Made by a program: the position numbers and the translations under genes. A stretch of 33,801 bases of DNA, taken from assembly GCA_030426845.1 (NCBI GenBank), contig JAUHXR010000063.1, positions 1-33,801 on the forward strand. Reading direction: 5' to 3'. This document shows, one piece after another, positions 3,231 through 33,222 of this stretch. The number at the start of each line of letters is the position of its first letter. Within the stretch, counting starts at the first letter, position 1. The notes beneath the pieces are model-generated. The model did not search any database. It was not told the DNA's origin and was given only the letters and a program-made list of their open reading frames with translations. This DNA comes from Polyangia bacterium (GTDB lineage Bacteria > Myxococcota_A > Polyangia > Polyangiales > Sandaracinaceae).

Positions 3231-3791
3231 ATGGGAAAGAAGATTGACAACGCGATGGCGAAGCTCGAGGACGCGCGGCTGCCCGAGCTGCGCGCCAAGT
3301 ACGAGGAGGTGATCGGGGAGCCGACGCGGGCGCCCAACCGGACGTACCTGCTGCGTCGGATCCGCGAGGGCCTCGAGGCGCGGGAGCGGGCGTCGCGTGA
3401 GCGACGGGGCGGCCGCCGCGCCCGCTCGAGCCGCGCCGGGCGCGCGACGGAGCGCCTCAGCGAGCTCTCGGTCGCGGACCTCCAGGCCCGGTACCTCGAG
3501 GAGGTGGGCCGCGCGACGGCGAGCGTCAACAAGAACTACCTCGTGTGGAAGATCCGGATGGCGCGCGCGGGCAAGGTGCGGGTCGGGCCGGCCCGCGAGC
3601 GCAAGCACGAGCCGGGGGACACGCAGGTCGTGCCGCTCACCCTCCCGCGGGGCGCGGTCGCCGCGCTCGACGAGGTCGTCGAGCGCACGACGTTCGGCAA
3701 CCGCAGCGCCTTCCTGCGGCGCGCGATCCACGACCTGCTCCGGGGCCAGGGGTTCGCCTCTGTGGCCACCGAGCACTTCGGCGAGGCCTAG
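3231..3791 (+). CDS. Ribbon-helix-helix DNA-binding protein with two DUF2924-like repeats
   Basis: 186 residues; the ATG at 3231 follows AAGGAGGAG. Residues about 16-49 (LRAKYEEVIGEPTRAPNRTY and the following basic helix) and 79-113 (LQARYLEEVGRATASVNKNY and helix) are two copies of one helical unit. The same unit opens the DUF2924 protein encoded at 10852 (LRAEYEAVFGEPTR). Residues 131-172 (VVPLTLPRGAVAALDEVVER, then SAFLRRAIHDLL) match the strand-helix-helix layout of ribbon-helix-helix repressors. The linker is very basic. It therefore looks like a DNA-binding regulator that borrows the recombinase-associated module. It lies upstream of the amidoligase cassette, which it may regulate; that is inference from position. 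Confidence 0.75.
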   Translation: MGKKIDNAMAKLEDARLPELRAKYEEVIGEPTRAPNRTYLLRRIREGLEARERASRERRGGRRARSSRAGRATERLSELSVADLQARYLEEVGRATASVNKNYLVWKIRMARAGKVRVGPARERKHEPGDTQVVPLTLPRGAVAALDEVVERTTFGNRSAFLRRAIHDLLRGQGFASVATEHFGEA

Positions 3792-3984: not shown

Positions 3985-4872
3985 ATGAAGAGCCTCCGCT
4001 TCGGGATCGAGATCGAGACGGTCGGACAGCGCCGGCGCCGGGTCGCCGAGGCGATTCAGGAGGTCGTCGGCGGGGCGGTCGTCCACGCGGGCGCCCCGGC
4101 CTGCTACGACCCCTGGGACGTCATCGCGGAGGACGGGCGCCGCTGGCGCGTGATGGCCGACTCGAGCCTGAGCGCCGGCTTCGGGCGCCAGGCCGAGGTC
4201 GTCAGCCCGATCCTCCGCTACGAGGACATCGGCACCCTGCAGCGGATCGTCCGCGCGGTCCGGCGGGCGGGGGCGAGCGTCGACCCGACTTGCGGGATCC
4301 ACGTCCACGTCGACGGCGCGCGCTTCGACGCGAAGGCGGCCTGCAACCTCATCAAGCTCGTCAACAAGCAGGAGCGGCTGATCGAGCACGCGCTCGGCAT
4401 CGACCCGCTGCGGCGCGCCAGCTACGCGCGCGGGGTCAACCAGGACTTCCTCCAGCGCATCGAGCGGGAGCGCCCGCGCGACCTCGACGCGCTCAACCGC
4501 GCCTGGTACGGCCGCCTCAACCGCGCTCCGGTCCACTACGACCAGACGCGCTACCGCGGGGTGAACCTCCACAACCTCTGGTTCCGAGGCACGGTCGAGT
4601 ACCGCTACTTCGACAGCACGCTCCACGCGGGCAAGGTCAAGGCGTACGTCCAGTTCTGCCTCGCCCTGAGCGCGAAGGCGATCCACGCGAAGCGGGCGAT
4701 CAGCGCGCCGCGCCCCTTCGACCCCGCGACCAGCAAGTACGACTTCCGGTGCTTCCTCCTGCGCCTCGGCCTGATCGGGCCGGAGTTCAAGACCGCGCGG
4801 CTGCACCTGCTCTCGCGCCTCGGCGGCTCGGCCGCGTGGAAGGGCGAGCGGCGCGACGCCCCCGCGAGCTGA
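3985..4872 (+). CDS. Amidoligase-family ATP-dependent carboxylate-amine ligase
   Basis: 295 residues from ATG 3985. The N-terminal motif FGIEIE (6-11), ADSSLS (58-63), EVVSP (71-75), GIHVHVD (104-110), [10 protein letters not shown] (189-198) and [16 protein letters not shown] (203-218) are the ordered conserved blocks of the amidoligase family (glutamine-synthetase-like fold), which joins a carboxylate to an amine through ATP. Acidic residues in the first block and the HxH pair are expected to bind metal and ATP. An in-frame ATG 20 codons upstream exists, but homologous proteins begin close to FGIEIE. The next gene, 21 bases downstream, encodes two gamma-glutamylcyclotransferase domains, a pairing described for amidoligase neighbourhoods in phages and bacteria. 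The product is presumably a peptide or amine conjugate; its identity is unknown. Confidence 0.9.
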
Positions 4873-4893
4873 CCACCCCTTGGAGAAACGACC

Positions 4894-5715
4894 ATGGAGA
4901 CCGTCACCTACTTCGCCTTCGGCTCGAACCTCGACGCGGCGCAGATGCGCCGACGCTGCCCCACCGCCGCGGCGGTCGGCCCGGCGCGGCTCACGGGCTG
5001 GGCCCTCGCGTTCGCCGGACACAGCGCCACCTGGGGCGGCGGGGTGGCCACGGTCGTGCGCGCGCCCGGCGCGTCCGTCTCGGGCCTGCTCTGGCGGCTG
5101 CCGCGCGACGAGCTCAGCCGGCTCGACGCGTACGAGGGCTACCCGCGCGCGTACGAGCGCCGGCGGCTCCTGGTGAGCGCTCTGTCCGGTCGGCGTCGCG
5201 CCTACGTGTACCTCAAGCCCGACGCGCTCCTCAGCGCGCCCGCCGCCGCGTACGTCGATCAGATCCACGACGCGTACATCGAGCACGGGTTCGATCGCGG
5301 CCCGCTGCTCGGCGCGGTCCTGCGCGCGGTCCGGGCCCGGGCCACCGTGTTCGTCTACGGGACCCTCCGCGAGGGGGAGGCGAACCATCACCTCCTCGGC
5401 GGGCGGAGGCCGACCGCGCGGGCGCGCACCGAGGCGCGCTTCCGCCTGGCCCACCTGGGGGGCTTCCCGGCGATGGTCCGCGGGGGTGGCGCGCGCGTCG
5501 TCGGCGAGACCTACGAGGTCGACGGCCGGACGCTCGCGCGGCTCGACCAGCTCGAGGGTCACCCGCGGCTCTACCGGCGCCAGCGGATCCGCCTCGAGGG
5601 CGGGGGCGACGCGCTCGCCTACTTGCTTCCCCCCGCCATGGCGGCAGGGTTCCCGACCATCCGGTCCGGGGACTGGACGGACCGTGAGGAGGATCGACGA
5701 TGCGCATCCGCTTGA
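4894..5715 (+). CDS. Tandem gamma-glutamylcyclotransferase (GGCT/AIG2-like) protein
   Basis: 273 residues, with TTGGAG upstream of the ATG. There are two complete GGCT-like domains. Domain 1 begins YFAFGSNLDAAQM (6-18) and carries LDAYEGYP (78-84 region) with E81. Domain 2 begins VFVYGTLREG (152-161) and carries LDQLEGHP with E221. The FxYGS/T-L nucleotide-like loop and the glutamate after LDxx are the binding loop and the catalytic acid in this family, and both copies keep both. The family cyclises and releases gamma-glutamyl groups from amines as pyroglutamate. Next to an amidoligase it would trim, edit or recycle the ligated product. The two domains differ (FGSNL against YGTL), so they may act on different substrates. 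Confidence 0.9.
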   Translation: METVTYFAFGSNLDAAQMRRRCPTAAAVGPARLTGWALAFAGHSATWGGGVATVVRAPGASVSGLLWRLPRDELSRLDAYEGYPRAYERRRLLVSALSGRRRAYVYLKPDALLSAPAAAYVDQIHDAYIEHGFDRGPLLGAVLRAVRARATVFVYGTLREGEANHHLLGGRRPTARARTEARFRLAHLGGFPAMVRGGGARVVGETYEVDGRTLARLDQLEGHPRLYRRQRIRLEGGGDALAYLLPPAMAAGFPTIRSGDWTDREEDRRCASA

Positions 5716-5945
5716 ACGCCGACGGCCGCGTGCTGCAGGGCACCCCAGTTCAGATCGTCCAGGCCATGCACGCGATCGCGTTCGGCGCCGACGGACTCTC
5801 GCTGAGCGAGTACATCGACTGGGCGTGTGATCACGCGGGCCGCATGATGGGCGTGCAGCTAGAGATCGCGGAGGGCGCGGACGAGGAGCGCGCGGCCGCG
5901 TTCGTCGACGCGATGATCGAGCGCGAGCTCGCCGTGCGCCTCTAG
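5700..5945 (+). CDS. Small conserved-looking protein of the amidoligase cassette
   Basis: 81 residues. GAGGAGG lies eight bases before the ATG, and the gene overlaps the end of the GGCT gene by 16 bases, so it is almost certainly cotranslated. It has a beta-hairpin-like start (MRIRLNADGRVLQGTP) and then helices (IVQAMHAIAFG, LSEYIDWACDHAGRM), and a C-terminal acidic helix. No Pfam-like family could be named. It may be the modified peptide, a carrier or an adaptor of the amidoligase system; this is inference from overlap only. Its stop codon lies in the same CTAG as the stop of the opposing kinase gene. Confidence 0.7.
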   Translation: MRIRLNADGRVLQGTPVQIVQAMHAIAFGADGLSLSEYIDWACDHAGRMMGVQLEIAEGADEERAAAFVDAMIERELAVRL

Positions 5946-7687
5946 CCTCCGCTCGACGGGCCGCGCTCTCGCGCCGCGGTCCAGCCCGCGACGGAGGCGA
6001 CCACGAGCAGGCCGACCGCGGAGGCGACCGCGCCGAGCGCGCCCAGCCGGCTCAGCGCGGGCTCCACGCCCGCCGGCAAGCCTTCCAGCGTCGCCGCGGC
6101 CAGGGCGCAGCCGATCGAGGCGCAGAGCGCGACCGCCAGCGCGCCGGCGGCGAGCGCGAGCCACGGTCGACGAGCGCGGGCGCGCCGCGGCGACGGCGTC
6201 TGGTCGTCGAGCCCGGAGAGCACAGGCAAGCGAAGGTGCCGCCTCGCCAACGGGGGCGCGGCCCGCTCGACGCGCGCGGGGGCCGCGGGCGCGCCCGCGG
6301 TCTCGACCTGCTCCATCGCCGCCCGGCCCGCGGCGGCGCGCTCGCCGATCTCGAGGACGCCGCTCTCGCGGGTCACCGGGCGCGCGAGGATCGACTCGGG
6401 GAGGTCCACCAGCGGGAGGGCGTCGCGCGTCGTCGGGATCCCTGCGGGCGCGCCCGGTGCGTCGCGTGCGACCAGCCGGGGCGCGACGCCAGCCGGAGCA
6501 GGCGCGGCGAGCGCGGCGAGCTGGTCCGCGACCGCGGCGTCCACGAGGACCTCGTCGGGGAGCGCCGGGGTGCGCGCGCCCACGTCGACGGCGCGACGTC
6601 GCGCGTCGACCCGCGCCACGACCTCCCGGCAGTCGACGCGGCCGGCGGTCACGCGCTGCTCGAGGGGCGACTGGTGGAGGCGCACGCGCGCCCCGAGCGG
6701 GCGCTGGTCGACGCCACCCCTCAGCGAGCTGAGGGCGCTCAGGACCGCGTCGGCCGACTGGAACCGCTCGTCCGGGTCCGGCTCGAGCAGGCGATCCACG
6801 ATGTCGACGAGCGCGACGAGATCGGCCTCGGGCCCCTCGCTCGAGTAGAACTCGGGCCGGAGCTCTTGGACACGCGGGCGTTCGCGGCGCTGGACCTGAC
6901 GCAGGTGGCTCTCGACCGAGGCGCCCTTGAACGCGCGTCGCGCGGTGAGCGCCTCGAAGAGCAGGGCGCCGAGGCTGAACAGATCGAGCCGTGGCCCGTA
7001 GCGGCCGCGGTCGGCGTCGGTGAGGTACTCGGGCGCCGCGTACGCGACGCGGCCCGGATGAGCGCGCGAGGCGTACAGGCCGGACGCCTCGACCGCGCGC
7101 GCGAACCCGAAGTCGATCAGGAAGGCGTCGCCGCGCACGTCGATCATCGCGTTCGCGGGGCTGACGTCTCGGTGGACGATCGGTGGGTGGCGGTAGGGCG
7201 TCGCGAGCGCGCGGCAGTCCGCGTGCGCCTCGGCGAGGGCGCCCGCGAGGTCGCGCGCGACGCCGACGACCGCCTGCCAGGAGAGCAGCTGCCGCTCGGC
7301 GCGCATCTTCCGGATGAGCTGGCCGAGCGTCATCCCGTCGATGTACGCGAACACGAGGCACATCACGCCCTCGTCGTCGCTGAGCTCCACGGCGTCCTCG
7401 AGGTGCGCGATGTTCCCGGGCGGCAGCAGCCGCAGGACGTCCGCCTCGTTCTGGAAGATCCGCCGCACCTCGCGCGGCGAGAGCTCGGAGAGCAGGAGCG
7501 GGCTCGGGATCTTGAGGCACTTCAGCCGCTCGCTCCCGCGCGGTCCAGGCGCGCTGCCGATGAAGGTGCAGGCGGTGCCGCCGTGCCCCGTCTGGGCCCG
7601 GATCCGGAACGGGCCGACCCGCTCCGGCAGCCGGTAGGGCCCGACCGCGCGCGGGCTGAACAGCCGCGACGTCGTCGAGTCCGGCAT
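5942..7687 (-). CDS. Membrane-anchored Hanks-type Ser/Thr protein kinase
   Basis: 581 residues. The kinase domain spans about 26-320: a glycine loop (GHGGTAC, 34-40), the ATP lysine in LKCLKI (K59 or K56), the alpha-C glutamate E81, the catalytic loop HRDVSPANAM (172-181), IDFGFA (191-196) and AAPE (217-220). All catalytic residues appear intact. A proline/alanine-rich linker follows, then two hydrophobic segments near residues 513-575, suggesting a C-terminal membrane anchor with little outside the membrane. It ends a minus-strand operon whose previous gene is a sigma factor, five bases away, so phosphorylation of that sigma factor or its partner is a reasonable guess. Such kinases are typical of myxobacteria and are unusual inside phage replication modules. 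Confidence 0.93.
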   Translation of the reverse strand: MPDSTTSRLFSPRAVGPYRLPERVGPFRIRAQTGHGGTACTFIGSAPGPRGSERLKCLKIPSPLLLSELSPREVRRIFQNEADVLRLLPPGNIAHLEDAVELSDDEGVMCLVFAYIDGMTLGQLIRKMRAERQLLSWQAVVGVARDLAGALAEAHADCRALATPYRHPPIVHRDVSPANAMIDVRGDAFLIDFGFARAVEASGLYASRAHPGRVAYAAPEYLTDADRGRYGPRLDLFSLGALLFEALTARRAFKGASVESHLRQVQRRERPRVQELRPEFYSSEGPEADLVALVDIVDRLLEPDPDERFQSADAVLSALSSLRGGVDQRPLGARVRLHQSPLEQRVTAGRVDCREVVARVDARRRAVDVGARTPALPDEVLVDAAVADQLAALAAPAPAGVAPRLVARDAPGAPAGIPTTRDALPLVDLPESILARPVTRESGVLEIGERAAAGRAAMEQVETAGAPAAPARVERAAPPLARRHLRLPVLSGLDDQTPSPRRARARRPWLALAAGALAVALCASIGCALAAATLEGLPAGVEPALSRLGALGAVASAVGLLVVASVAGWTAARERGPSSGG

Positions 7688-7692
7688 CGCCG

Positions 7693-8415
7693 CTACCCCG
7701 CGCTGTCTCCGTCCGCGCGGCGCGCCGCCACCGAGGAGGCGAACACGACCACGTGCTGGCGGAGCTTCTTGAAGAGCTTGTCGCGCTCGCGGAGGCGCTT
7801 CGAGCGCTCGTGGATGCCGATCGACGCCGCCGCCTCCTTGAGCGGGCGCCCCTCGATCAGCAGGGCGCGGGCGAACCGGCGCTCGTCCTCGCCCTCGAGC
7901 CTCGCGAGCGCGAAGCGCACCTTGTCTCGATCGAGCTCCGCCTGCTCACGCTGGAGGTACTGGTCCTCCGGCGACTCGAGCCCGAGCGAGCCCGTGATCA
8001 GCCCGGAGTAGAGCTGGTGGTTGAGGTGCGCGCAGAGCCCCTGGAAGCGATCCTCCAGGCTCCGGTGCTCGGTCGGGTCGAACGTCGCCGCGCTCAGCGC
8101 GGTCGCCCGCTTCCCGCGCTCGCGGCCGTGCAGCCTCCGGACGTGCGCCGCCGCCTCGTCGACGATGGCGCGGGCGACGAACGCGGCGCGGCGGCCCTCG
8201 GTGCGCCGCTCCGGAGGCAGCGCGCGCCACTCGCGCAGCCCCCGGGCCGCGCCCAGCGCGGCGGCCGCGCGCAGCTCCTCACGGTGCGCGGGATCGACCC
8301 GGTAGCGGCGCACGATGCGGCCCACCCACTCCTCGACGAAGCGCGCCTCGCGGCGCCGCTCGCGCGCCTCGTCGAGCGACGCCGGCGGTGTGCCCGTGGG
8401 GGTCGACAGCGTCAC
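7693..8415 (-). CDS. Sigma-70-family RNA polymerase sigma factor, divergent
   Basis: 240 residues from GTG 8415, which overlaps the preceding stop as GTGA. Residues about 25-95 resemble sigma region 2: a helical segment (WVGRIVRRYRVDPAHREELR, then GAARGLREW) and FVARAIVDEAAAHVRRLHGR, where region 2.3-2.4 would bind the -10 element. Residues about 165-220 end in a helix-turn-helix (PLKEAAASIG, RSKRLRERDKLFKKLR) consistent with region 4. The middle is longer than in ECF sigmas, closer to FliA/SigB-like factors. It lies between a 109-residue protein and a membrane kinase in one operon. It could redirect host polymerase to phage promoters or respond to the kinase. Divergence makes the family call probable, not certain. 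Confidence 0.75.
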   Translation of the reverse strand: MTLSTPTGTPPASLDEARERRREARFVEEWVGRIVRRYRVDPAHREELRAAAALGAARGLREWRALPPERRTEGRRAAFVARAIVDEAAAHVRRLHGRERGKRATALSAATFDPTEHRSLEDRFQGLCAHLNHQLYSGLITGSLGLESPEDQYLQREQAELDRDKVRFALARLEGEDERRFARALLIEGRPLKEAAASIGIHERSKRLRERDKLFKKLRQHVVVFASSVAARRADGDSAG

Positions 8416-8741
8416 CGCGCGCCCTCGTCGTTGCCCGTCTCCCCGCCGTAGGCGGCGGCGATCGCGGCGCGCGACTCCACGACCTCGGGGCTCGCCTCCA
8501 GGAGCGCCTCCCCGCGCGCCTGGAGCTCGGCGCGGGTGCGCTCTGAGACCTCGTCGAAGCGCTCGAGCGCGAGGGCCAGGAGCTCCTCGTCGGCCTGCGC
8601 GACCGTCAGCTCGCCCGCGCGCAGCCGCGCCTCGATCCGCTGGAGGGCCTCGCGCTCGCGCCGCGCGCGGAGCGCGTCCTCGTCGGTCGCCTCGAGCAAG
8701 GCGTCGGGGATCCTCACGGAGGCCGCGTCGTCTTCCGCCAT
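8412..8741 (-). CDS. 109-residue helical protein upstream of the sigma factor
   Basis: An acidic, strongly helical protein, likely coiled coil over residues 25-90 (repeats of Leu/Ala spaced with Arg/Glu, such as LLALALERFDEVSERTRAEL). First gene of the sigma/kinase operon, with its TGA overlapping the sigma GTG. No domain recognised. Its size, charge and position would suit an anti-sigma factor, an anti-anti-sigma partner or an adaptor, but no anti-sigma motif (such as a HxxxCxxC zinc site) is present. Confidence 0.65.
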   Translation of the reverse strand: MAEDDAASVRIPDALLEATDEDALRARREREALQRIEARLRAGELTVAQADEELLALALERFDEVSERTRAELQARGEALLEASPEVVESRAAIAAAYGGETGNDEGAR

Positions 8742-9161
8742 GGCGGGCCGAAAGCTAGGCGCCGGCGCAAGGCCGCGCCCGTAGGAACGACGCGGCCCGA
8801 GCGCCCGTCACCCGAATCCCATTTGTTTTCGTCGCCCGCGGTCGAGGCCTGGCCGCCGTTCGGGCGATCGAGGCAGATCGCCACGAAGAAAATCCGAAGA
8901 AAGAGCGAGCCCTGCGACCTCGTTCGACAGGTCTCTCGAGGGGAGCGAGAGCGTCCCGGACACTGGCACCCCCAGACACTCGCGGAGGAGGAGGAGAGCA
9001 CCGCAGAGACCGCGGGGGCGGCGCGGACGGACCACGTCCCGAGCGCCCGCCCGCGCGCTTTAGAGGATCGCCCGCGCCCACGATCGGGCGCCCACAGATG
9101 CCACTCGCGGAAGCCCACGCCCGCCCCGTCGGGACGAGCGGCCGCCATGCGGAAGAGAGCC
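8742..9161. promoter_or_regulatory. 420-base divergent intergenic region
   Basis: This gap separates the minus-strand sigma/kinase operon from the plus-strand replication genes and must hold promoters for both directions. It contains two A/T-richer patches (ATTTGTTTTC at 8821-8830 and GAAGAAAATCCGAAGAAAGA at about 8884-8903) and a short inverted repeat CTCTCG/CGAGAG at 8933-8951. I could not assign reliable -35/-10 pairs, and I see no convincing gene in it: the longer open frame through it is high-GC drift without a ribosome site. Confidence 0.45.
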
Positions 9162-10025
9162 ATGTCGCTGACGAACACCCTGTCCGCGCTGACGGCCGAG
9201 CTGCGCTCGCGACGTCACGAGGAGACCTTCAACCGGGCGCGCGCCCGGCACCCCGCGCTCGGCGAGGTCGACGACCTCCCGACCCTGCTCGACCTGCTGA
9301 CGGCGAGGCGCGAGCGCCCCTACGAGACGAGCGAGGCGCTCGCGGTCGCGTTCCTCGCCGAGCAGCAGGCCGGCACGAGCCCGCTGTGGGGCGGGCTGCT
9401 CGTGCTGCTCTGCGCGCCGATGCTGGGCGCCCTCCGCGCGAGCGTCCGCGGCGAGGCGCTGGCGAAGGACGAGCTCGAGGCGGCGATCCTCGGCCACTTC
9501 CTCGAGGTCGCGCAGGGGCACGACCTCGAGCGGACCAAGCCCGGTCACACGCTGGTCGCGCTGCGCTCCAAGACGCGCCGCGCCGTCTTCCGCGAGCTCA
9601 AGCACGCGCAGCGGGAGCAGCAGGTGGCGCCGCCGACCGATCCCGCGCTCCTGTTCGATCTGCTCGACGGGGACGCCGGGCTCGCGGGCTACCGGAGCGA
9701 CGACGCGCCGTCCGAGGCGGGCCTCGGGGAGGTGCTCGATCAGATGCGCCAGGTCTCCTTCCTGCGCGAGCGCTGCGGCGCCGCGCTCGAGGCGGAGCAG
9801 CTCGACCTGGTCGTGCACACCCAGGTCCGTGGCGGCCGCCTCTCCGACTACGTCGACGAGCGCTACCCCGACCTGCCCCCGGAGGAGCGCACCCGCACCT
9901 ACGAGCGGCTCAAGCGCCAGCACAGCCGCTCGCTCGAGGTGCTGCGCCGGGCGCTCGCGCACCTGCGTCGGCCCCGCGCCGCCGACGCGGCCGACCGCGC
10001 CGAGGACCTCGAGCACTGCGGCTGA
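9162..10025 (+). CDS. Helical protein resembling a divergent sigma factor
   Basis: 287 residues; the ATG at 9162 follows GGAAGAGAG. A hydrophobic helical core (PLWGGLLVLLCAPMLGALRA at about 74-93), a basic segment (ALRSKTRRAVFRELKHAQRE, 133-152) and a C-terminal TRTYERLKRQHSRSLEVLRRAL (245-264 region) reminiscent of the recognition helix of sigma region 4. The general order fits sigma-like proteins seen in myxobacteria, but no signature is strong enough to be sure. It opens the plus-strand DNA-metabolism run, divergent from the sigma/kinase operon, and could be a transcription regulator of that run. Confidence 0.7.
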   Translation: MSLTNTLSALTAELRSRRHEETFNRARARHPALGEVDDLPTLLDLLTARRERPYETSEALAVAFLAEQQAGTSPLWGGLLVLLCAPMLGALRASVRGEALAKDELEAAILGHFLEVAQGHDLERTKPGHTLVALRSKTRRAVFRELKHAQREQQVAPPTDPALLFDLLDGDAGLAGYRSDDAPSEAGLGEVLDQMRQVSFLRERCGAALEAEQLDLVVHTQVRGGRLSDYVDERYPDLPPEERTRTYERLKRQHSRSLEVLRRALAHLRRPRAADAADRAEDLEHCG

Positions 10026-19356: not shown

Positions 19357-22300
19357 GTGCAGTCGGGTAGCGAGCGGAGTGATAGCGCCGGCGACGAGGT
19401 GATCGCCGTGGCTCCCCACCGCGAGCTCAAGGCGTTCGACGGCGTCACCCCCGGCCGCGGCCCTGAGCTCTATCGGGTGCGCCCGCTGCGCGAGGCGCTG
19501 CTCGACACCTACGCGACCGACGCGCACCTCGTCGCCTACGTCGTCGAGGGCCGCGAGACACAGCCGCGGATCCTCAAGCGCGCGTGGGAGCTCGTCGGCG
19601 CGCCGGTCACGGTCGGCGTGTTCTTCGCCGACGTCGACGCGCCCGACCACGGGCGGTGGGACTTCGCGTTCTACGACCACCTGCTGACCGCCTTCGAGAC
19701 CCTGCCGATCCTCGCGCGCGCGGGCCTGTACCTCACGATGCACGGCGCGCGCGTCGTGCAGCCGCTCGACCGGCGGATCTCGGTCGGCGACGTCGAGCCG
19801 CTCATCGACGCCTGGCTCCACGCGCTCATCGACGCCGGCGTGCACCGGGAGGGCGTCGCGCACGTCGACCTCGCGTGCCGCGACTGGACCCGGCACTTCC
19901 GCGCGCCGCACGTGCAGCGGAGGATCCGGGGCCAGCGTCGGCGGGTGCCGTACACCTCGCCGCGAGTGGATCTGTCGCGCATGGCGCCCGTCGCGCCGCC
20001 GCGCCCGACCGCGTCGGCGCCGCCGCGCCGGCCCGCGCCAGCTCGACCGCGCCCCGCCCCTCCCTCACGCGCCGCGACGGCGCCAGGCGAGGTGCCGAGC
20101 GAGTGGGTCGACGGCGTCCGCGTGCTGGGTGACGCCTGCGCGCGCGTCCCCGACGGCCGACACGACCTGTACCTCGCGCTCGCGGGCGCGCTGATCGACA
20201 AGCGGGCGGCCCCGGCGCTGCTCCCCGCCCTGCTCGGGACCATCGCCACGCGCGCCGACGACCCGAACGTGCGCGACCGGGTGAAGTGCGGCGAGACGAC
20301 GGCGGAGCGGGCCGCCGCGGGCGTGGTCATCAAGGGCTACGGCACGCTGCGGATGAGGTGGCCCGCCATCGCGAGCGCGCTGGATGTGGCCGCCGAGTGG
20401 TCCGACAGGCCGTCGCCCGCCGCGGTCGGCACGCTCGAGGGCGCCGAGGCGGCGCTCCGCGCGCACCTCCGCGCGGCGCCGGACGGCGTGACCATCCTCG
20501 CGGCGGAGTGCGGGCTCGGGAAGACGCACGCGTTCCTCGAGGCCGCCATCGAGCGGACGCAGAGGCGTCGCCGCGAGGGCGCCGCTCGCGCGCCCCTCGA
20601 CTCCAAGACGGTCCTCTCGGTCGACAAGCACTCGCTCGCCATCCAGTGCTTCGAGCAGCTCCAGGAGGCCGACGTCCCTGCGCAGCGCCTCTTCAGCCCG
20701 GCCTCGCTGAAGGACGCCAGCGGCGATCCGGTGTGCAGGAAGCACGAGGTCGCGCGCGCGCTCGTGGCGGGCGGGCAGGCGATGCGCTGGGAGCTCTGCG
20801 AGGGGCGCGGCCTCCGGCCGTGCGAGCACCTCCGCGGCTGCGCCGCGACGCGCGGGTTCGAGGGTGACGAGGACGCGCGCGTCGTTGTCGGCGTCCACCC
20901 TCAGCTCGCGCAGCTGGCGCGCGCCGCCGGGACGACCGGGCTCCTCGGGATCGACGAGCCGCCGCCGCTCCCTCGCTCCACGACGATCACGACGGCCGAC
21001 CTCGACCTCGCGACCGCCGAGCTCGCGCGCTTCGACGGGATCTTCGCGGCGGCGCTCCGGCCCGCCCTGGGCGCGCTGTGGGCCTGGCTGCGGTACTGCC
21101 CCAGCCAGGAGCCCGTCGCCCTCCGCGCGGCCCTCTCGGCCCAGCGCTGGGGCGAGCGCGACGACGACCTCGCGTGGGCGCGGGCCGCGACCCTCCGCCA
21201 GTCCGACGACCTGGCCGAGCTCGCCGAGGCGACCGCCCACCAGGAGCGCCGCCGCCGCGGCCCGCCGCTGAAGTGGGAAGCGGTCCAGGTCGCCTCGGGC
21301 AACCCCGACTCCGCGCGGCGGATCGGGCGCGCGTCGCGCGTGCTGGAGACCCTGCGGTTCGCGCTCACGACCCCGGGCGTGGTCAAGCTCTACGCGACCG
21401 GCGACGAGGCCCCGGCCGCCGTGATCACGCACGTCGACGAGCCCCTCCGCCGCGCCCTCGCCCGCGAGGGGCGCACCGTCGTGCTCGACGCCAACGCGGA
21501 GACGAACCTCCCGCTCTACGAGCGGTCCCTCGGCTACACGCCCGAGCTCCTGCGGTTCGCCGCGCCGGACGGCGCCCCCATCGAGCGGACGCTCCTCCGG
21601 TGCAGCAAGGCGACGCGCGCAGGGTGGCGCGTGGAGGTCGATCGCTTCGACGCCGCGGGCGGCAGCTTCCGCAACGCGCTGGAGGCCGCGATCGACTGGG
21701 CGCTCGAGCGCCCAGCGGGCGCGATGGCGGTGATCACGATGAAGACCATCCGCGAGGTCCTCGAGGACTGCCTCCTCCCGGACGAGGAGCTCCCGCGCGG
21801 CCGCTACGACGGCCGACGTGGGCTCCTCAGCGCCGCGCGGGAGCACCTGGCCCCGCTCCTCCGACGCTTCCCTGGCGCGATCCTGTGGGGCCACTACGGG
21901 GCGCTGCGGGGCCTGAACGACATGGCCGACGTGGACCTCCTCGTCACGCTCGGGGACCCGCGCCCCAACGTCACCGCGACCGAGAACGACCTCGCGCTCC
22001 TCGACCTCGACGACGACACCGCGCGCCGCCGCGTGGAGCAGCTCGCGCGCGCGGAGCTCGAGCAGGCCCACGGGCGGCTGCGCGCCCCCCGCCGCGCGCG
22101 CGCCGCCCGCGCGCTGCACGTCGGCGCCCTCCGCCCCGGCGGATCGGGCTGGGCCGGCGACGTCGAGCTGCGCGAGCTGAAGGGCGGCCGACCCGGCGTC
22201 GCGCTCCGGGTCCACCCCGTGAAGGTCCGCGCCCTCGTCGAGCGCGTCGGCGGCCCCGCCGCGGCCGCCCGGATCCTCGGGCTGTCGCGCCGCTCGGTGC

Positions 22301-22410
22301 ACCGGTTCATGTCGGGCGACCGCGCGATCGATCCTGGCAAGCTGGCGACCCTGCGGGGCGCCCGGGAGGCCCCCTCCAGCGCGGGCGCCGCGTGTGACCA
22401 GAACCCTTAA
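19357..22410 (+). CDS. Archaeo-eukaryotic-type primase fused to a helicase-like ATPase
   Basis: 1017 residues from GTG 19357, after AAGGAGG (an alternative GTG at 19408 would remove 17 residues). The N-terminal domain (about 40-200) shows the AEP primase pattern: FFADVDAP with D92 and D94 for metal binding, LTMHGARV with H129, and RDWTRHFRAPHVQR (175-188). A Pro/Arg linker follows. The second half has a P-loop CGLGKTHA (384-391), a cysteine set around 475-510 (PVCRKHE, ELCEGRG, RPCEHLRGC) that may bind iron-sulphur or zinc, and a Walker B GIDEPP (about 530-535). A C-terminal helix-turn-helix (ARILGLSRRSVHRFMSGDRA) may bind the origin. It should prime and unwind DNA at the start of replication. 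Confidence 0.82.
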   Translation: MQSGSERSDSAGDEVIAVAPHRELKAFDGVTPGRGPELYRVRPLREALLDTYATDAHLVAYVVEGRETQPRILKRAWELVGAPVTVGVFFADVDAPDHGRWDFAFYDHLLTAFETLPILARAGLYLTMHGARVVQPLDRRISVGDVEPLIDAWLHALIDAGVHREGVAHVDLACRDWTRHFRAPHVQRRIRGQRRRVPYTSPRVDLSRMAPVAPPRPTASAPPRRPAPARPRPAPPSRAATAPGEVPSEWVDGVRVLGDACARVPDGRHDLYLALAGALIDKRAAPALLPALLGTIATRADDPNVRDRVKCGETTAERAAAGVVIKGYGTLRMRWPAIASALDVAAEWSDRPSPAAVGTLEGAEAALRAHLRAAPDGVTILAAECGLGKTHAFLEAAIERTQRRRREGAARAPLDSKTVLSVDKHSLAIQCFEQLQEADVPAQRLFSPASLKDASGDPVCRKHEVARALVAGGQAMRWELCEGRGLRPCEHLRGCAATRGFEGDEDARVVVGVHPQLAQLARAAGTTGLLGIDEPPPLPRSTTITTADLDLATAELARFDGIFAAALRPALGALWAWLRYCPSQEPVALRAALSAQRWGERDDDLAWARAATLRQSDDLAELAEATAHQERRRRGPPLKWEAVQVASGNPDSARRIGRASRVLETLRFALTTPGVVKLYATGDEAPAAVITHVDEPLRRALAREGRTVVLDANAETNLPLYERSLGYTPELLRFAAPDGAPIERTLLRCSKATRAGWRVEVDRFDAAGGSFRNALEAAIDWALERPAGAMAVITMKTIREVLEDCLLPDEELPRGRYDGRRGLLSAAREHLAPLLRRFPGAILWGHYGALRGLNDMADVDLLVTLGDPRPNVTATENDLALLDLDDDTARRRVEQLARAELEQAHGRLRAPRRARAARALHVGALRPGGSGWAGDVELRELKGGRPGVALRVHPVKVRALVERVGGPAAAARILGLSRRSVHRFMSGDRAIDPGKLATLRGAREAPSSAGAACDQNP

Positions 22411-22497: not shown

Positions 22498-23535
22498 ATG
22501 GAACCCTCGCAGCGGCGCCGCGCCGCCACCCCGCCCACGCTGCTGGCGCTGCTCGCCGTCTCCCTCACCGGGTGCGGCTCGTGCGCCTGGACGACCGCCA
22601 CGCCCGCGGCGCCCCCCGCCCCCTACGACCTCGGGCTCCTCCCCGCGTCGCTCGGGATCGCGTGGCCCGCGCAGCCCGAGGTGGACCGCGAGGTCGCGCT
22701 CGACTCGGCCGACGACGTGGCCAACGGCTACTTCGAGTCGAACACGCGCCTCCGGATCCGCGTCGACCTGGACGAGCTGGTGATCGACGCCGACGACGTC
22801 ATCGTCGCGCCGGATCCCGGCGTCCGCGTGCGGTCGGTCCGCGTCCGGCGCGGCAACCGACGCCTCCGCTTCGAGGGCGGCCGGTACGGCGAGGTCGCCT
22901 TCGAGTCGCCGCACGTGATCAGCACGCCGAGCGGGTGGAGGAGCGAGGGGGAGATCACCGACGTCACCTTCTCGTCCGTGATCGTCCGCGGCGGCTCCTT
23001 CGGGCTCGTGGTCCGCGGGCGCCGCGTGGCCGTCCTCCACAGCGACCTCTCCTCGAGCTCGACGGCCCTCTTCGTGGGCGACACGACGCCCGTCCCGTCC
23101 AGCGACATCATCGTCGCCGACAGCGCGCTCTCGGGCGGCGGGGGCGCGGCGACGCTGGTCATCAACCAGGCCGAGCGGTCGGTGGTCGTGGACTCCTGGA
23201 TCGAGAACCACGCCACCTACGGCTACGTCATCTCCGGCGAGGCCGACGCGGCCTTCGCGCGGGGCAACACCTTCGTGGGCGGCGGCGCCTCGGTGGGCGA
23301 TCGGCCGAGCAGCCGCGTCCTGCGCGCGTGGCTCCTCGCGAACACGTTCTACCAGTCCGGCCCCCTCCTCGGCCTCGACCCCGGCCAGCTTGAGGAGCTC
23401 ACGCTCGTGGGCAACCGCGTCTACTCCGACCGCGTGCGGTGCGCGTGGTGCGCCCCGACGCCGCCCTGGTGGAACGTCGGCGCGAACTCGGTGCTCGCGT
23501 ACCGCGCGCCCCCCTCCGCCCCGGTGCGGCCCTGA
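22498..23535 (+). CDS. Beta-helix-like lipoprotein, first of a tandem pair
   Basis: 345 residues. Residues 1-25 form a lipoprotein signal (basic start, LLALLAVSLTGC) with lipobox LTGC and acylated C26. The mature part shows repeated short beta strands with spaced Val/Ile and Gly/Asn turns (GGRYGEVAFES, FGLVVRGRRVAVLHSDL, GDTTPVPSSDIIVADSAL, RGNTFVGGG, LVGNRVYSD), consistent with a right-handed parallel beta-helix. No catalytic residues were recognised. Cysteines near the end (CAWC) may form a disulphide. It has no obvious phage structural role and looks like cargo exposed on the cell surface. The downstream gene is a paralog. Confidence 0.78.
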   Translation: MEPSQRRRAATPPTLLALLAVSLTGCGSCAWTTATPAAPPAPYDLGLLPASLGIAWPAQPEVDREVALDSADDVANGYFESNTRLRIRVDLDELVIDADDVIVAPDPGVRVRSVRVRRGNRRLRFEGGRYGEVAFESPHVISTPSGWRSEGEITDVTFSSVIVRGGSFGLVVRGRRVAVLHSDLSSSSTALFVGDTTPVPSSDIIVADSALSGGGGAATLVINQAERSVVVDSWIENHATYGYVISGEADAAFARGNTFVGGGASVGDRPSSRVLRAWLLANTFYQSGPLLGLDPGQLEELTLVGNRVYSDRVRCAWCAPTPPWWNVGANSVLAYRAPPSAPVRP

Positions 23536-24590
23536 CGCGGCCGTCGCCCCGGCTGCGCTGCCTGCCCGCGCTGCTGCCCGCCGCCGCGCTGCTCCTCAGC
23601 GTCGCGCTCAGCGGGTGCCAGCAGTGCGCGAGGGTGATCCGCCCCGAGCCGCCCGAGGGCTCGGGCCCGGCCGCGCGAGAGCTCGGCGTCCTCCCCGCCG
23701 AGCTCCACGTGCGCTGGCCCCTGCGGCCCCGCGTCCGCGAGGAGGTGACCCTGGCGCCGAGCGGCGACGACCTCGTCGTGTGGGACACCCCGCTCACCCG
23801 GCTGCGCGTGCGCGACGAGGTCGAGCGGCTCGTTATCAGCGCGTCCGACGTCGAGGTCGACGTGGACGAGGGCATGTACGTCGGCGCCCTCGAGGTCGCG
23901 CCCGGGAGCCAGCGGGTGTGGATCCGCGGCGGGCGCTACGGGGAGATCGTCGTCGCCGCGCCCGAGGAGCTGAGCCCGCCGCCGCCCGAGTGGCGCGCGC
24001 CCGACATGGTCGAGGACGTGCTCATCGAGGGCGCCACGGTCGACGCGCTCCGCCCGGAGCAGATCGGGCTCCGGTTCACGGGGCGCCGCGTCGCCGTCGT
24101 GAGCAGCCGGGTCGACGCTCAGATGGCGGCCGTCTGGATCGGCGACGCGGGGCCCGTCGCCTCGGAGGACGTCATCGTCGCGGGGTGCAGCCTCCGGAGC
24201 GTCGACGACTCGACGCTCGTCGTGGTGGGCGCCGAGCGCGCCGTGATCGTCGAGAGCTGGCTCGAGAGCCCGGTGAGCGCGGCGCTCCGGATCCACGGCG
24301 AGTCGGCGGGGGTGGTGGCGACCCGCAACACCCTCGTCGGCGGCGGCGCGCAGATCGGCACCGACGCCCGCGACGCGGTCGTCGACGCCTGGTTCTGGGC
24401 GAACACCGTCTACCACTCGGCGCACACCCTGATGAACCTCGCGCCGTACCGGATCCACCGCCTCGTGCTGACGGACAACCGGGTCTACAGCGACGCGGCG
24501 ACGGCCCTCTGGGGCGGAGAGAGCCGACCGTCGTGGGTGATCGCGAACAACCGGGTGCGCCCGCACCGTCCGCCACCGGCGCGGCCGTGA
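23469..24590 (+). CDS. Beta-helix-like lipoprotein, second of a tandem pair
   Basis: 373 residues from the GTG at 23469; the start is doubtful. The protein shares GGRYGEI, GRRVAV, the GDAGPVASEDVIVAG block, NTLVGGGAQIG, WANTVY and NRVYSD with the first lipoprotein, so it is a clear paralog. The lipobox VALSGC is preceded by the hydrophobic run LPALLPAAALLL. The ideal signal start would be the CTG at 23532, which overlaps the previous stop as CTGA; the GTG gives an unusually long basic leader of about 50 residues before the cysteine. The end is followed six bases later by a hairpin. Function unknown: surface adhesin, decoy or superinfection-exclusion factor are possibilities. Confidence 0.78.
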   Translation: MERRRELGARVPRAPLRPGAALTRPSPRLRCLPALLPAAALLLSVALSGCQQCARVIRPEPPEGSGPAARELGVLPAELHVRWPLRPRVREEVTLAPSGDDLVVWDTPLTRLRVRDEVERLVISASDVEVDVDEGMYVGALEVAPGSQRVWIRGGRYGEIVVAAPEELSPPPPEWRAPDMVEDVLIEGATVDALRPEQIGLRFTGRRVAVVSSRVDAQMAAVWIGDAGPVASEDVIVAGCSLRSVDDSTLVVVGAERAVIVESWLESPVSAALRIHGESAGVVATRNTLVGGGAQIGTDARDAVVDAWFWANTVYHSAHTLMNLAPYRIHRLVLTDNRVYSDAATALWGGESRPSWVIANNRVRPHRPPPARP

Positions 24591-25674: not shown

Positions 25675-27303
25675 TTGCTCGCGGTCGTCAAGCGGACCGA
25701 GGCCGAGCTGCTCGCGTACTTCGGCGCGGCGTCGGCGTTCGCCACGGGCGCGCTGCGCTACGACGGCGAGCCGCTCGCGCTCGAGTCCTACCAGCGGGCG
25801 TTCCTCGACGACCGCTCCACCTTCCGCTGGATCGTGAAGGCGCGGCAGGTCGGCTTCTCGTTCCTCTTCGCGATCGAGTGCCTCATCCGCTGCCACCTGG
25901 AGCCGAACTTCACCGCGATCTGCGTCTCGTACAACCACGCCGACGCGGTCGAGAAGGTCCGGGTCGCGCGCCAGCTCTACGAGGAGCTGCCCGCGCCGTA
26001 CCGCAAGCGGCTCGTCACCGACACGCGCACCGAGCTCGAGTTCGAGACGAACAGCGGCGCGCGCCGCGGGCGCTCGCGCATCGTGTCCGTTCCGAGCAAG
26101 CCCCCGCGCGGCAAGCACGGCACCGTCTACCTCGACGAGCTCGCGCACTACCAGGACGCGCGCAAGGTCTACGCGGGCACCACCGCGGCGATCGCGCGCG
26201 CGAAGGGCCAGCTCACCGCGGCGTCGACGCCGCTGGGCCGCCGCGGGCTGTTCTGGGAGGTCTGCGCCGAGGAGCTGCGCGCGTACCCCGGGCACGCTCG
26301 ACAGGCCGTGCCGTGGTGGGTCTGCACGTTCTTCTGCGTGGACGTCGGGCGCGCGGTCGTCGAGGCGCCGCTCATGGCCACCGAAGAGCGCGTCGAGCGC
26401 TTCGGGACCGAGGCGCTGCGCCACCAGCTCGAGTCGCTCGACCTCCTCGAGTTCCAGCAGGAGTTCGAGCTGAGCTTCGTCGCGGAGCGCCTCTCGTACT
26501 TCCCGTACGACCTGATCCTCGGCTGCACCGTCGGCGAGCTCGAGCTCGCCGAGGACTGGAGCCAGGTCCCCGTCCCCACCGGTCGCCTCGTCGCCGGCTA
26601 CGACGTCGGCCGGCGCGCGCACCGCAGCGCCCTCGCGCTGTTCGAGGAGCGGCCCGGGCCGCGCTTCGTGTGCCGGGCGCTCAAGCTGTACGACGACGTC
26701 CCGTTCGAGGAGCAGAAGGCGGAGCTCCGCGGGATGCTCGAGGCGCTCCCGATCGCGCGCTTCTCGATCGACGGCAACGGCATCGGCATGAACCTCGCGG
26801 AGGACCTCGGCCGCGAGTTCCCCCAGGTCGTCACCGAGCCGTCGAGCGGGCCCGCGAAGGAGCGCTGGGCGACGGACCTCAAGATCACCCTGCAGCGCAG
26901 GGCGGTCGAGCTCCCGCGCGAGCGCGGCCTGGTCGCGGAGATCCACTCGGTCGAGCGCCGCGTGAGCTCGAGCGGGCGCGTCTCGTTCGACTCGCCCGCG
27001 ACCTCGAAGGGGCACGCCGACCGGTTCTGGGCGATCGCGATGGCCTGTCAGAAGGAGCGGCAGGCGGAGGGCGGCGAGCTGCCCACCGTCCACGCGCGCG
27101 TCGTCGGCGGCGAGCGCGCGAGCTTCGAGCGCAGCCTCGACCGGCTGATCGGCTGGTCGCAGGGCGCGACGGAGGCGACCGCAGGTGAGGCCGAAGCGCC
27201 GGCGTCTCCCCGCGCGGGGCCGAAGCGGACCGCGGCGCGCCTCCCCCCCGCCGGCGCGGTGCGGCGAGGTCGACCCAAGGGCAGAAGCGAGAGGAGGGCG
27301 TGA
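25675..27303 (+). CDS. Phage terminase large subunit (TerL)
   Basis: 542 residues from TTG 25675, placed with no gap after the terS stop. ATPase: a degenerate Walker A KARQVGFS (55-62), Walker B TVYLDELAHY (150-159, D154 E155) and coupling motif AASTPLGRRG (182-191). Nuclease: VAGYDVGRRA (D310), FSIDGNGIG (D366) and KGHADRFWAI (D449), the three acidic metal ligands of the RNase-H-like domain. The enzyme translocates DNA into the prohead and cuts it. A Pro/Arg-rich tail follows from about residue 490. The nonclassical P-loop, with Gln-Val in place of GxxG, is common in terminases of this group. The gene is followed by a small frame overlapping by one base. Confidence 0.93.
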   Translation: MLAVVKRTEAELLAYFGAASAFATGALRYDGEPLALESYQRAFLDDRSTFRWIVKARQVGFSFLFAIECLIRCHLEPNFTAICVSYNHADAVEKVRVARQLYEELPAPYRKRLVTDTRTELEFETNSGARRGRSRIVSVPSKPPRGKHGTVYLDELAHYQDARKVYAGTTAAIARAKGQLTAASTPLGRRGLFWEVCAEELRAYPGHARQAVPWWVCTFFCVDVGRAVVEAPLMATEERVERFGTEALRHQLESLDLLEFQQEFELSFVAERLSYFPYDLILGCTVGELELAEDWSQVPVPTGRLVAGYDVGRRAHRSALALFEERPGPRFVCRALKLYDDVPFEEQKAELRGMLEALPIARFSIDGNGIGMNLAEDLGREFPQVVTEPSSGPAKERWATDLKITLQRRAVELPRERGLVAEIHSVERRVSSSGRVSFDSPATSKGHADRFWAIAMACQKERQAEGGELPTVHARVVGGERASFERSLDRLIGWSQGATEATAGEAEAPASPRAGPKRTAARLPPAGAVRRGRPKGRSERRA

Positions 27304-27508
27304 TGAGGCGACGGCTGCAGGTGTTCGTGATCGCGGCCGCGGAGGGGCCGAGCGGGTCGCCGCGGCCAGCGGACGACCGCGAGGTGGAGGCGCGCACCAC
27401 CGACGCCCTCCGCGAGGCCGCGCGCGCCGCGCTCGAGGCCGACGGCTACCGAGTCCGCGCGGTCTCATTCACCCCCGACGGCCTGGTCGCCTACGTCGAG
27501 GAGCGCGG

Positions 27509-27512
<4 letters not shown>
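27303..27512 (+). CDS. Small 69-residue protein between terminase and portal
   Basis: ATG 27303, with GGAGG upstream; a GTG directly before it overlaps the terL stop. The sequence (MRRRLQVFVIAAAEG, TTDALREAARAALEADGYRV, SFTPDGLVAYVEERG) looks like a small beta-alpha-beta fold. Its end overlaps the portal start as ATGA. Such small proteins often lie between TerL and portal genes; no function is known. Confidence 0.7.
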
Positions 27513-29104
<1,592 letters not shown>

Positions 29105-31503: not shown

Positions 31504-31693
31504 AACCGAGCTGCATGGACGAGTGGCATCGGTGGTGCCGTCATCCCGCCTGACCACCGGAACATGGGCGAGAGGGACTTCTGCGACTGCCGGATTGTAG
31601 CTCCCCGTCAGGGGCCCCCGGACAGATTGTCCCGTTCTTTGCCTCCTCGCCTTTCCTCGTCCGAGACGCCGATGCCTGTCGGCCTCGAACGAT

Positions 31694-31885
31694 ATGCCGA
31701 GGACGCACGCCCTCCTTACATCCGATCCGCTCGCGCTGGACGCCCTCCGCCGCGCGGTCCGCCGCCTCCGGCGGGGCCTCCGCTCCTGCCGGAGCCGCTG
31801 GGCCGCGCGTCGGTTCAGCGCCGCGCTCGCGCACGCGGCCGACCACGCGACGACGCTCCGCTTCCCCGAGGACCCGCGCCGATGA
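31694..31885 (+). CDS. Small basic 63-residue protein before the Dam-XkdF gene
   Basis: ATG 31694 to TGA 31885, overlapping the next ATG by four bases. High-GC codons return here after the lower-GC insert. The protein is strongly basic and helical (LRRAVRRLRRGLRSCRSRWA). It has no strong ribosome site. The coupling overlap is the main support; no function assigned. Confidence 0.45.
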   Translation: MPRTHALLTSDPLALDALRRAVRRLRRGLRSCRSRWAARRFSAALAHAADHATTLRFPEDPRR

Positions 31886-33222
31886 GCGCGACCCTTGACG
31901 CGGCGCTCGCGCGCGCCCGGCTCGTCCTGGACGTCGCCTCGCGCGGCCCGATCGCCAAGACGATCTTCGCCAGCCCGGCGGGCAAGAAGCGGCTCGCGAA
32001 GCGGCTCGTGGCGATGCTTCCGGCGCACTCGACGTACGTCGAGCCGTTCGCGGGCTCCGCCGCGGTGCTCTTCGAGAAGGAGCCGTCCAGCGTCGAGGCG
32101 ATCAACGACGCGGACGCCGACATCGCGGAGGCGTACCGGCTCATCAAGCGGCTCAACCCGAGGAAGCTCGAGCGCCTCCGCCGGATGCGGTGGACCGGCG
32201 ACGAGGCGACGTACAAGCGGGTCTACTCCTCGAGCCCGAGCGGGGAGCTGGAGCGGCTGCACCGCTTCCTCTACCTCGCGACCTTCAGCTACGGGAAGCT
32301 CCGGGGGTCGTCGTTCAACCCCGGCTCCGCGGGCAAGGAGTCGCGCACGATGGCGCGGCTCGAGCAGAGCGCGCCGCGGCTCGCGAAGGTGCGCGTGCAC
32401 TCGGGCGACTACCTGAAGGTGGTCAAGCGCTACGACGGCGCGGGCACCGCGTTCTTCTTCGACCCGCCGTACGCCGGCTACGACGTCAACGTCGGCGAGT
32501 CGAGGTTCGACGAGGAGCGCTTCTACGAGGTGCTCAAGGGCCTCCGCGGGGAGTTCCTGCTGACCTACGGCATCCGCGGGAAGCTGCCCGGCCTCCTCAA
32601 GGGGTCGGGCTTCCACATCCAGCGCGTGCGCACGCCGCGCGGCATCCGATCGATGCGCGGGGTCGGCGGCTCGAGCGTCCTGACGCAGCTCGTCGTCACG
32701 AACTACGCGCCGCCGACCCGGAAGGACGGCTGGCTCGAGCCGTGGGACGGACAGCTCGAGCTCGGCGACCACGTCCCGACGGTCGGCCCGTCCACCACGA
32801 CGGAGGGCGCCTTCGCCAAGTCGATCCCGCTCCTCAAGGGCGCGGACCCCGCGGACGAGCGGTTCGTGTTCGGGGTGGTGCTCGAGCCGGAGACGGTGGA
32901 CGCGCAGGGCGACGTCTACTCAGCCGACGAGGTCCGCAAGGCCGCGCACCGCTTCATGGAGGAGTACCGCGGCCTCGGCCTCCAGCATCAGCTCCGGGTC
33001 AACGACCAGGTGAAGATCCTCGAGAGCTTCATCGCCCCCGTGGACTTCGGCGTCGGCGACGTGGCCGTCAAGAAGGGCACATGGCTCCTCGCGGTGCGCG
33101 TGCTGTCCGACGCGCTGTGGGCGCGGGTCGCCGAGGGCAGCCTCACCGGCTTCTCGATCGGCGGCTCGGCGCGGAAGGTGCCGGAGCCCACCGCGCGCCG
33201 GGAGGCCGAGGGCGCGGCGTGA
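31882..33222 (+). CDS. DNA adenine methylase fused to XkdF-like prohead protease
   Basis: 446 residues. N-terminal half (about 20-280): a D12-class (Dam-type) adenine-N6 methyltransferase with the AdoMet loop YVEPFAGSAAVLF (52-64) and catalytic FFDPPYAG (192-199). C-terminal half (about 325-430): the XkdF/peptidase S78-like capsid protease, with FVFGVVLEPETVDAQGDVYS (328-347), H369 in GLQHQ and S425 in LTGFSIGGSA, likely the catalytic pair. The methylase would mark the phage genome, for example against host restriction, and the protease cleaves head proteins during maturation. The joining of both in one chain right after the portal genes is notable. There is no stop or frameshift between them. 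Activity of each half is inferred from motifs. Confidence 0.88.
   Translation: MSATLDAALARARLVLDVASRGPIAKTIFASPAGKKRLAKRLVAMLPAHSTYVEPFAGSAAVLFEKEPSSVEAINDADADIAEAYRLIKRLNPRKLERLRRMRWTGDEATYKRVYSSSPSGELERLHRFLYLATFSYGKLRGSSFNPGSAGKESRTMARLEQSAPRLAKVRVHSGDYLKVVKRYDGAGTAFFFDPPYAGYDVNVGESRFDEERFYEVLKGLRGEFLLTYGIRGKLPGLLKGSGFHIQRVRTPRGIRSMRGVGGSSVLTQLVVTNYAPPTRKDGWLEPWDGQLELGDHVPTVGPSTTTEGAFAKSIPLLKGADPADERFVFGVVLEPETVDAQGDVYSADEVRKAAHRFMEEYRGLGLQHQLRVNDQVKILESFIAPVDFGVGDVAVKKGTWLLAVRVLSDALWARVAEGSLTGFSIGGSARKVPEPTARREAEGAA

Follow-up and report, generated by a model that had tools for sequence, protein, structure and literature searches.

A prophage-borne amidoligase, two fused GGCT domains and a conserved small protein: a candidate gamma-glutamyl modification cassette in a myxobacterium

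The window, by which the whole analysed stretch of DNA is meant, is a 33.8 kb contig from a 9.4-Mb myxobacterial genome. It is the left part of a prophage, as indicated by its terminase, portal and methyltransferase-head protease genes together with exonuclease, helicase, ParB-like and serine recombinase genes. A preliminary description of this DNA had centred on an amidoligase, a double-domain GGCT protein and a small overlapping protein as a possible undescribed modification system; the prophage location was absent from it. The features discussed here are the following.

3231..3791, + strand: upstream neighbour, DUF2924-like and ribbon-helix-helix protein (DUF2924 E=1.5e-6, RHH_1 E=0.002, both just below the cut-off)
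3985..4872, + strand: Amidoligase_2 (PF12224), carboxylate-amine ligase of predicted GS/GCS-like fold, 295 aa (PF12224, phrog_2443, AF2 model)
4894-5715, + strand: fused GGCT-A and GGCT-B protein, 273 aa (PF06094, 150.7 bits, two stretches)
4894..5328, + strand: GGCT-A domain, N half, YGSN type, human GGCT-like (phrog_2520; PDB 2i5t/3cry human GGCT; FGSNL motif)
5332..5715, + strand: GGCT-B domain, C half, YGTL type, GGACT/YtfP-like (PF06094 best stretch 152-262; YGTL motif)
5700..5945, + strand: SMALL, conserved 81-aa protein, function unassigned (homologs in the same position; AF2 pLDDT 91)
25675..27303, + strand: terminase large subunit (phrog_22646 E=1e-112, terminase PHROGs)
27509..29104, + strand: portal protein (phrog_12 E=4.7e-31, scanned as 27185-29104)
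31882..33222, + strand: DNA methyltransferase and head maturation protease (phrog_13242 E=2.5e-195, phrog_3017 E=3e-38, phrog_56 E=9e-37; scanned as 31564-33222)

The first gene of the cassette belongs to the Amidoligase_2 family. In a profile search its ORF matched PF12224 with E=2e-56 and 192 bits (cut-off 22) over positions 2-244 of the 245 in the profile, which is the full domain, and a PHROG search matched it to phrog_2443 'amidoligase enzyme' (E=3e-80). Residues E9, E11, E71, H106, H108, N194, E205 and R207 are invariant in an alignment of 25 diverse homologs, and the motifs are thus complete, as had been claimed; all of these except N194 presumably form the metal/ATP site, judging from the fold. 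Among solved structures, YbdK (Z 13.4, 236 aligned) is the nearest to the AF2 model (pLDDT 94), followed by plant glutamate-cysteine ligase (Z 13.2, 250 aligned), while glutamine synthetases and Dop/PafA score lower (Z 10-11); Foldseek alone listed GS and Dop. The enzyme is accordingly predicted to have a GS/GCS-like fold with conserved acidic and histidine residues. A sequence search against PDB sequences gave no significant match, and we know of no activity for this clade of PF12224. Glutamate-cysteine ligases couple the gamma-carboxyl of glutamate to an amine, producing gamma-glutamyl amides. The second PF12224 copy in the same genome (G000:C98) is a separate gene, around which no cassette genes were detected.

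The second gene encodes two GGCT domains in tandem, both with intact active-site motifs, in agreement with the preliminary description. The nearest solved relative of the GGCT-A half is human GGCT (PDB 2i5t/3cry), and those of the GGCT-B half are E. coli YtfP (PDB 1xhs) and human GGACT (PDB 3jub). When the halves are aligned to each other, as the preliminary description had proposed, they share 41% identity over 64 aa (E=1e-9). The catalytic Glu lies in 'DAYEGYP' in GGCT-A and in 'DQLEGHP' in GGCT-B. Among the collected loci, the substrate-loop motif is kept in 104 of 106 GGCT-A and 49 of 50 GGCT-B domains, and the context of the catalytic Glu in 103/106 and 47/50, respectively. This retention suggests that both domains are under pressure to remain active, and the degeneration of catalytic residues in homologs that had been considered at the outset was not found. 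GGCT enzymes require a gamma-glutamyl amide as substrate and cyclise its glutamyl group, opening the bond.

The double-domain architecture, singled out earlier as worth attention, turns out to be a local fusion that joins two genes normally standing apart. GGCT-A and GGCT-B are encoded by separate adjoining genes in nearly all collected loci and are fused in three only: the window and the viral contigs L158 (3124-3942) and L241 (7145-7972). The fusion may have more than one origin. Two GGCT-like domains in one protein are also known from Bacillus subtilis YkqA (PDB 2qik), where the domain order is opposite; to our knowledge, YkqA does not occur beside an amidoligase.

The third gene, SMALL, is the 81-residue ORF at 5700-5945, which shares 16 bases with the GGCT ORF (5700-5715), as first noted, and is preceded by a ribosome-binding-like GAGGAGG. 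SMALL is a real gene and no chance ORF, since homologs are found in the same position in dozens of genomes and viral contigs. Its median dN/dS is about 0.31 against 0.29 for the amidoligase, rough values given that dS is unreliable at this GC. Pfam, PHROG and NCBIfam returned no significant family, tblastn found no SMALL in named phages or plasmids, and an HMM search found none in LUZ24, RIO-1 or three Firmicutes phages. No mention of SMALL was met in the available excerpts of the literature on phage amidoligase cassettes, nor in the family libraries searched. SMALL is therefore a conserved and apparently undescribed component, whereas the described phage cassettes already hold amidoligase and GGCT. 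The earlier notion of an undescribed modification system thus holds in part: the cassette is conserved and includes SMALL, for which no description was found, but phage cassettes of amidoligase and GGCT, some with GATase and ATP-grasp, are published, and those of LUZ24 and RIO-1 are annotated (excerpts of PMC5498523, PMC3890496 and PMC11318856).

An alignment of 26 diverse members of SMALL contains two invariant residues, G14 and Y38, and two nearly invariant ones, V20 and M23; the C-terminus is variable and no Lys, Asp, Glu or Gln is invariant. The AF2 model is compact, with a beta hairpin, three helices and a short final strand, and has no convincing PDB match (Foldseek best E 1.1, VIA best Z 3.0). 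These features bear on the suggestion that the small protein is itself the target, a Pup-like tag or precursor peptide that the amidoligase joins to other molecules. Such a role would suit a short dedicated protein whose gene overlaps that of the GGCT, and PafA and Dop of the Pup system resemble the cassette in pairing carboxylate-amine chemistry on a GS-like fold with a small partner protein. Pup, though, is a small disordered modifier with a conserved C-terminal Gly-Gly-Glu/Gln, whereas the C-terminus of SMALL varies and the protein is predicted with confidence to be folded. Furthermore, a homologous domain stands N-terminal to DUF5049 in Desulfobacterota-type loci, where its C-terminus is not free. 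SMALL is hence probably neither Pup-like nor an obvious precursor peptide, and a role as target or tag appears quite improbable, although a variable lysine or the N-terminus might still be modified. An accessory or adaptor role fits the modelled fold better.

To assess conservation of the cassette, homologs of the amidoligase were gathered from same-order and same-phylum genomes, from named bacterial genomes and from viral contigs, and each locus was scored with profiles for four domains; genes in relatives were called by a simple script. Loci were chosen by similarity to the window amidoligase and include near-duplicates, so the counts are descriptive and do not represent independent events. 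SMALL is present in 32 of the 40 loci with both GGCT-A and GGCT-B near the amidoligase, normally directly after GGCT-B, and absent from the other eight. The three-gene order is therefore conserved, and the absence of the small protein beside homologous amidoligases, named beforehand as evidence against the system, was not the finding. Loci with the amidoligase, two GGCTs and SMALL include Myxococcus xanthus, Corallococcus, Archangium and several viral contigs.

A second arrangement, in Desulfobacterota, Phycisphaerae, Anaerolineae and other hosts, runs from the amidoligase to SMALL or a SMALL-like domain, in many cases fused to DUF5049, next to a class-II glutamine amidotransferase (GATase, PF13522) and finally, often, to GGCT-B. 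Both GGCT and class-II glutamine amidotransferase are enzymes that open gamma-glutamyl amides, and one or the other lies near the amidoligase in 159 of 178 loci. A first count suggested that the two exclude each other. This was rejected when lower thresholds recovered both in 16/178 loci, and it is also contradicted by Desulfobacterota-type loci that hold GATase and a divergent GGCT-B. The SMALL-like domain is present in most GATase-type loci, so that SMALL, considering also its frequency in two-GGCT loci, tracks the cassette whichever cleaving enzyme is used. In the Desulfobacterota/Planctomycetota-type cassette of myovirus prophages (L098, L170), the genes are amidoligase, SMALL-DUF5049, GATase_6 and GGCT-B. 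The amidoligase is of the same clade as in the window (55-58% identity) and adjoins SMALL or a SMALL-like domain, but unlike in the window a class-II glutamine amidotransferase replaces GGCT-A and SMALL is fused or adjacent to DUF5049.

DUF5049 (PF16468) is fused C-terminal to the SMALL domain, between amidoligase and glutamine amidotransferase, in L097, L098 and similar Desulfobacterota/Phycisphaerae loci, whereas L170 encodes SMALL and DUF5049 as two split genes (8978-9400 and 9357-9674). Some Firmicutes-type phages have a stand-alone DUF5049 close to an amidoligase, which, together with the fusion, makes it probable that the domain is part of the same system. Another conserved family of 60-115 aa lies inside or just after the Myxococcota cassette in 18 loci, for example L035:9365-9709 (-) and L037:12802-13101 (+); it has no credible family match and was not seen in the window.

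Many Firmicutes phages encode the amidoligase with GGCT-A alone, and GGCT-A with SMALL in the absence of GGCT-B occurs in five loci across all hosts. In a sample of the phylum, 15 of 379 genomes encode SMALL: in six, an amidoligase and a GGCT share the locus with it; in another five, GGCT-B adjoins SMALL, several of these loci lying at contig ends or being degraded; and in four, neither amidoligase nor GGCT was seen at SMALL.

Within the window, the left 2.5 kb looks from its sequence like host DNA, one ORF there having a weak (35%) homolog in a different genome from this family, and the cassette therefore seems to lie near the left border of the prophage. The DUF2924-like family upstream recurs in 28 cassette loci (Myxococcota cassettes). 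The contig ends within the head genes. For G043, a relative from the same order, and for Desulfosarcina widdelii, 20-35 kb upstream of the cassette were read. In both, head-related, sheath, tube, baseplate and tail-fibre-like (DUF4815 or similar) genes, several assigned by eye, lead to the cassette, and a terminase-like gene lies in the region of D. widdelii. Moreover, DUF4815 is found near the amidoligase in 27 loci and its Myxococcota counterpart in 18. Where read, the cassette thus typically closes a late region of myovirus-like type, just downstream of tail-fibre genes. A capsid-less contractile injection system was considered for Desulfosarcina, in which a sheath gene is close to the cassette and the sole PF05065 capsid is megabases distant. 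It was rejected on account of terminase-like, methyltransferase-protease and other head-module-like genes in the region (by eye); carriers of this type look like ordinary myovirus prophages.

Other genes of the window are recorded here as observations. A convergent operon (5942-8741, -) encodes a Ser/Thr protein kinase (PF00069 E=4e-23) and two further proteins, one of 240 aa that is possibly sigma-like and one of 109 aa; it overlaps the stop end of SMALL by 4 bases and is not conserved beside the cassette elsewhere. In the replication region, a 1003-aa ORF (19399-22410, +) has only a weak YdaS-like C-terminal match and no PHROG match. Just before the terminase genes, two tandem paralogous ORFs (22498-23535 and 23439-24590, +; 38% identity over 315 aa, E=4e-56) have lipoprotein-like starts and a repeat or beta-helix look, the second having no match in Pfam.

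Related phage cassettes have been described. Those of phiEco32, RIO-1, LUZ24 and other phages combine an amidoligase with GGCT, GATase and ATP-grasp, and were proposed to change peptidoglycan against superinfection (PMC5498523, PMC3890496, in the excerpts available). Like the window, this 'peptidoglycan modification' cassette (RIO-1 gp8-gp14; LUZ24 gp16-gp22) is phage-borne and has a PF12224 amidoligase beside a GGCT, which in LUZ24 and RIO-1 is of the B type shared with the window (72-74 bits against the GGCT-B profile). The amidoligases are only distantly similar to that of the window (20 and 8 bits). These cassettes hold a RimK-like ATP-grasp, a class-II glutamine amidotransferase and, besides the amidoligase, a second COOH-NH2 ligase; none of these turned up in the window as searched, which has a second GGCT and SMALL instead. 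A six-frame search of the window, on a contig lacking the rest of the prophage, gave no match to a GATase profile built from relatives; likewise, no RimK-like ATP-grasp or second COOH-NH2 ligase is among the called genes scanned, the prophage being cut by the contig end. Prophages of Clostridium clostridioforme and Terrisporobacter carry amidoligase and GGCT pairs (PMC11318856, PMC11253131, in part). This temperate-phage pair of Firmicutes (phrog_2443 and phrog_2520), also found in Ca. Heliusvirales, shares the amidoligase family at about 35-43% identity and the downstream GGCT-A type, but unlike the window it usually has a single GGCT and often a second amidoligase, and SMALL is rare.

By analogy, the cassette could alter peptide cross-links of host peptidoglycan or another surface structure and so block the adsorption of competing phages, the published interpretation of related amidoligase/GGCT/GATase cassettes (PMC5498523, PMC11318856, PMC11253131, as excerpted). 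An N-acetylmuramoyl-L-alanine amidase-family gene a few genes upstream in two Myxococcota relatives read in detail would agree with such a role. In those excerpts, however, superinfection exclusion is itself predicted from gene content, and the cassettes concerned contain GATase, ATP-grasp and a second ligase, none of which was found in the window as searched; in addition, inspection of the three window proteins revealed no obvious signal peptide. Superinfection exclusion is possible but unlikely here.

The favoured reading is instead a gamma-glutamyl 'write and erase' module carried by the prophage, in which SMALL is a dedicated accessory protein, a proposal about evenly poised between right and wrong. 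Its observed basis is the set of genes and their conserved order, the intact active-site motifs, the fold as predicted and the location in a prophage; glutamate as the donor, the acceptor, the direction, the shared transcript and the role of SMALL are inferred. A gamma-glutamyl writer and eraser is the simplest reading given the GCL-like fold, the chemistry of GGCTs and the catalytic residues kept in both: the gamma-glutamyl amide that a GGCT needs is what a GCL-like amidoligase would make. The amidoligase would spend ATP to activate a side-chain carboxyl, that of glutamate or of a glutamyl peptide, and link it to an amine acceptor; the donor could also be another carboxylate, and in GATase versions the amine could be ammonia. 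The GGCT domains would strip gamma-glutamyl groups as 5-oxoproline, GGCT-B as the GGACT type acting on gamma-glutamyl amines and GGCT-A as the type acting on gamma-glutamyl amino acids or short peptides. Together, the ligase and its one or two erasers or trimmers would install, trim or reverse a modification. SMALL, made from the same transcript, would be a non-catalytic substrate adaptor or enzyme partner. Its absence from eight of the 40 two-GGCT loci, the three Firmicutes phages, LUZ24 and RIO-1 indicates that the chemistry does not need it everywhere, and the SMALL genes of the phylum sample that stand apart from any amidoligase count against the partnership. The acceptor would probably be made or reached late in infection, since the cassette follows tail-fibre genes in relatives; the host envelope and proteins of the tail or baseplate are the candidates.

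Alternatively, the same enzymes could serve small-molecule metabolism as an auxiliary metabolic function, with gamma-glutamyl-polyamines or amino acids made and recycled for nitrogen or redox metabolism of the host. GGCTs of other organisms do act on small gamma-glutamyl compounds, and for Phage-ZRK32 a role of its amidoligase/GGCT/GATase genes in nitrogen metabolism has been put forward (PMC10945688, in part). Yet a conserved accessory protein and a tail-fibre neighbourhood are odd for a free metabolite pathway, and to destroy gamma-glutamyl compounds as soon as they are made would be futile unless the two steps took place at different times, leaving metabolism a rather unlikely explanation.

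A narrower form of the write-and-erase proposal makes SMALL, alone or fused to DUF5049, a specificity subunit that would present a protein of the tail fibre or baseplate to the amidoligase for gamma-glutamylation, with GGCT or GATase editing the mark. In this specific form it is a long shot; if true, temperate phages from several phyla would share a system that gamma-glutamylates virion proteins reversibly and has an adaptor of its own. Amidoligase/GGCT cassettes of phages have been annotated for more than 15 years. The position after tail-fibre genes makes virion proteins a testable target beside the idea of superinfection exclusion. SMALL offers a concrete handle on the substrate: it recurs beside the amidoligase in hosts that include Myxococcota, Desulfobacterota and Planctomycetota, and it persists when the cleaving enzyme switches from GGCT to glutamine amidotransferase.
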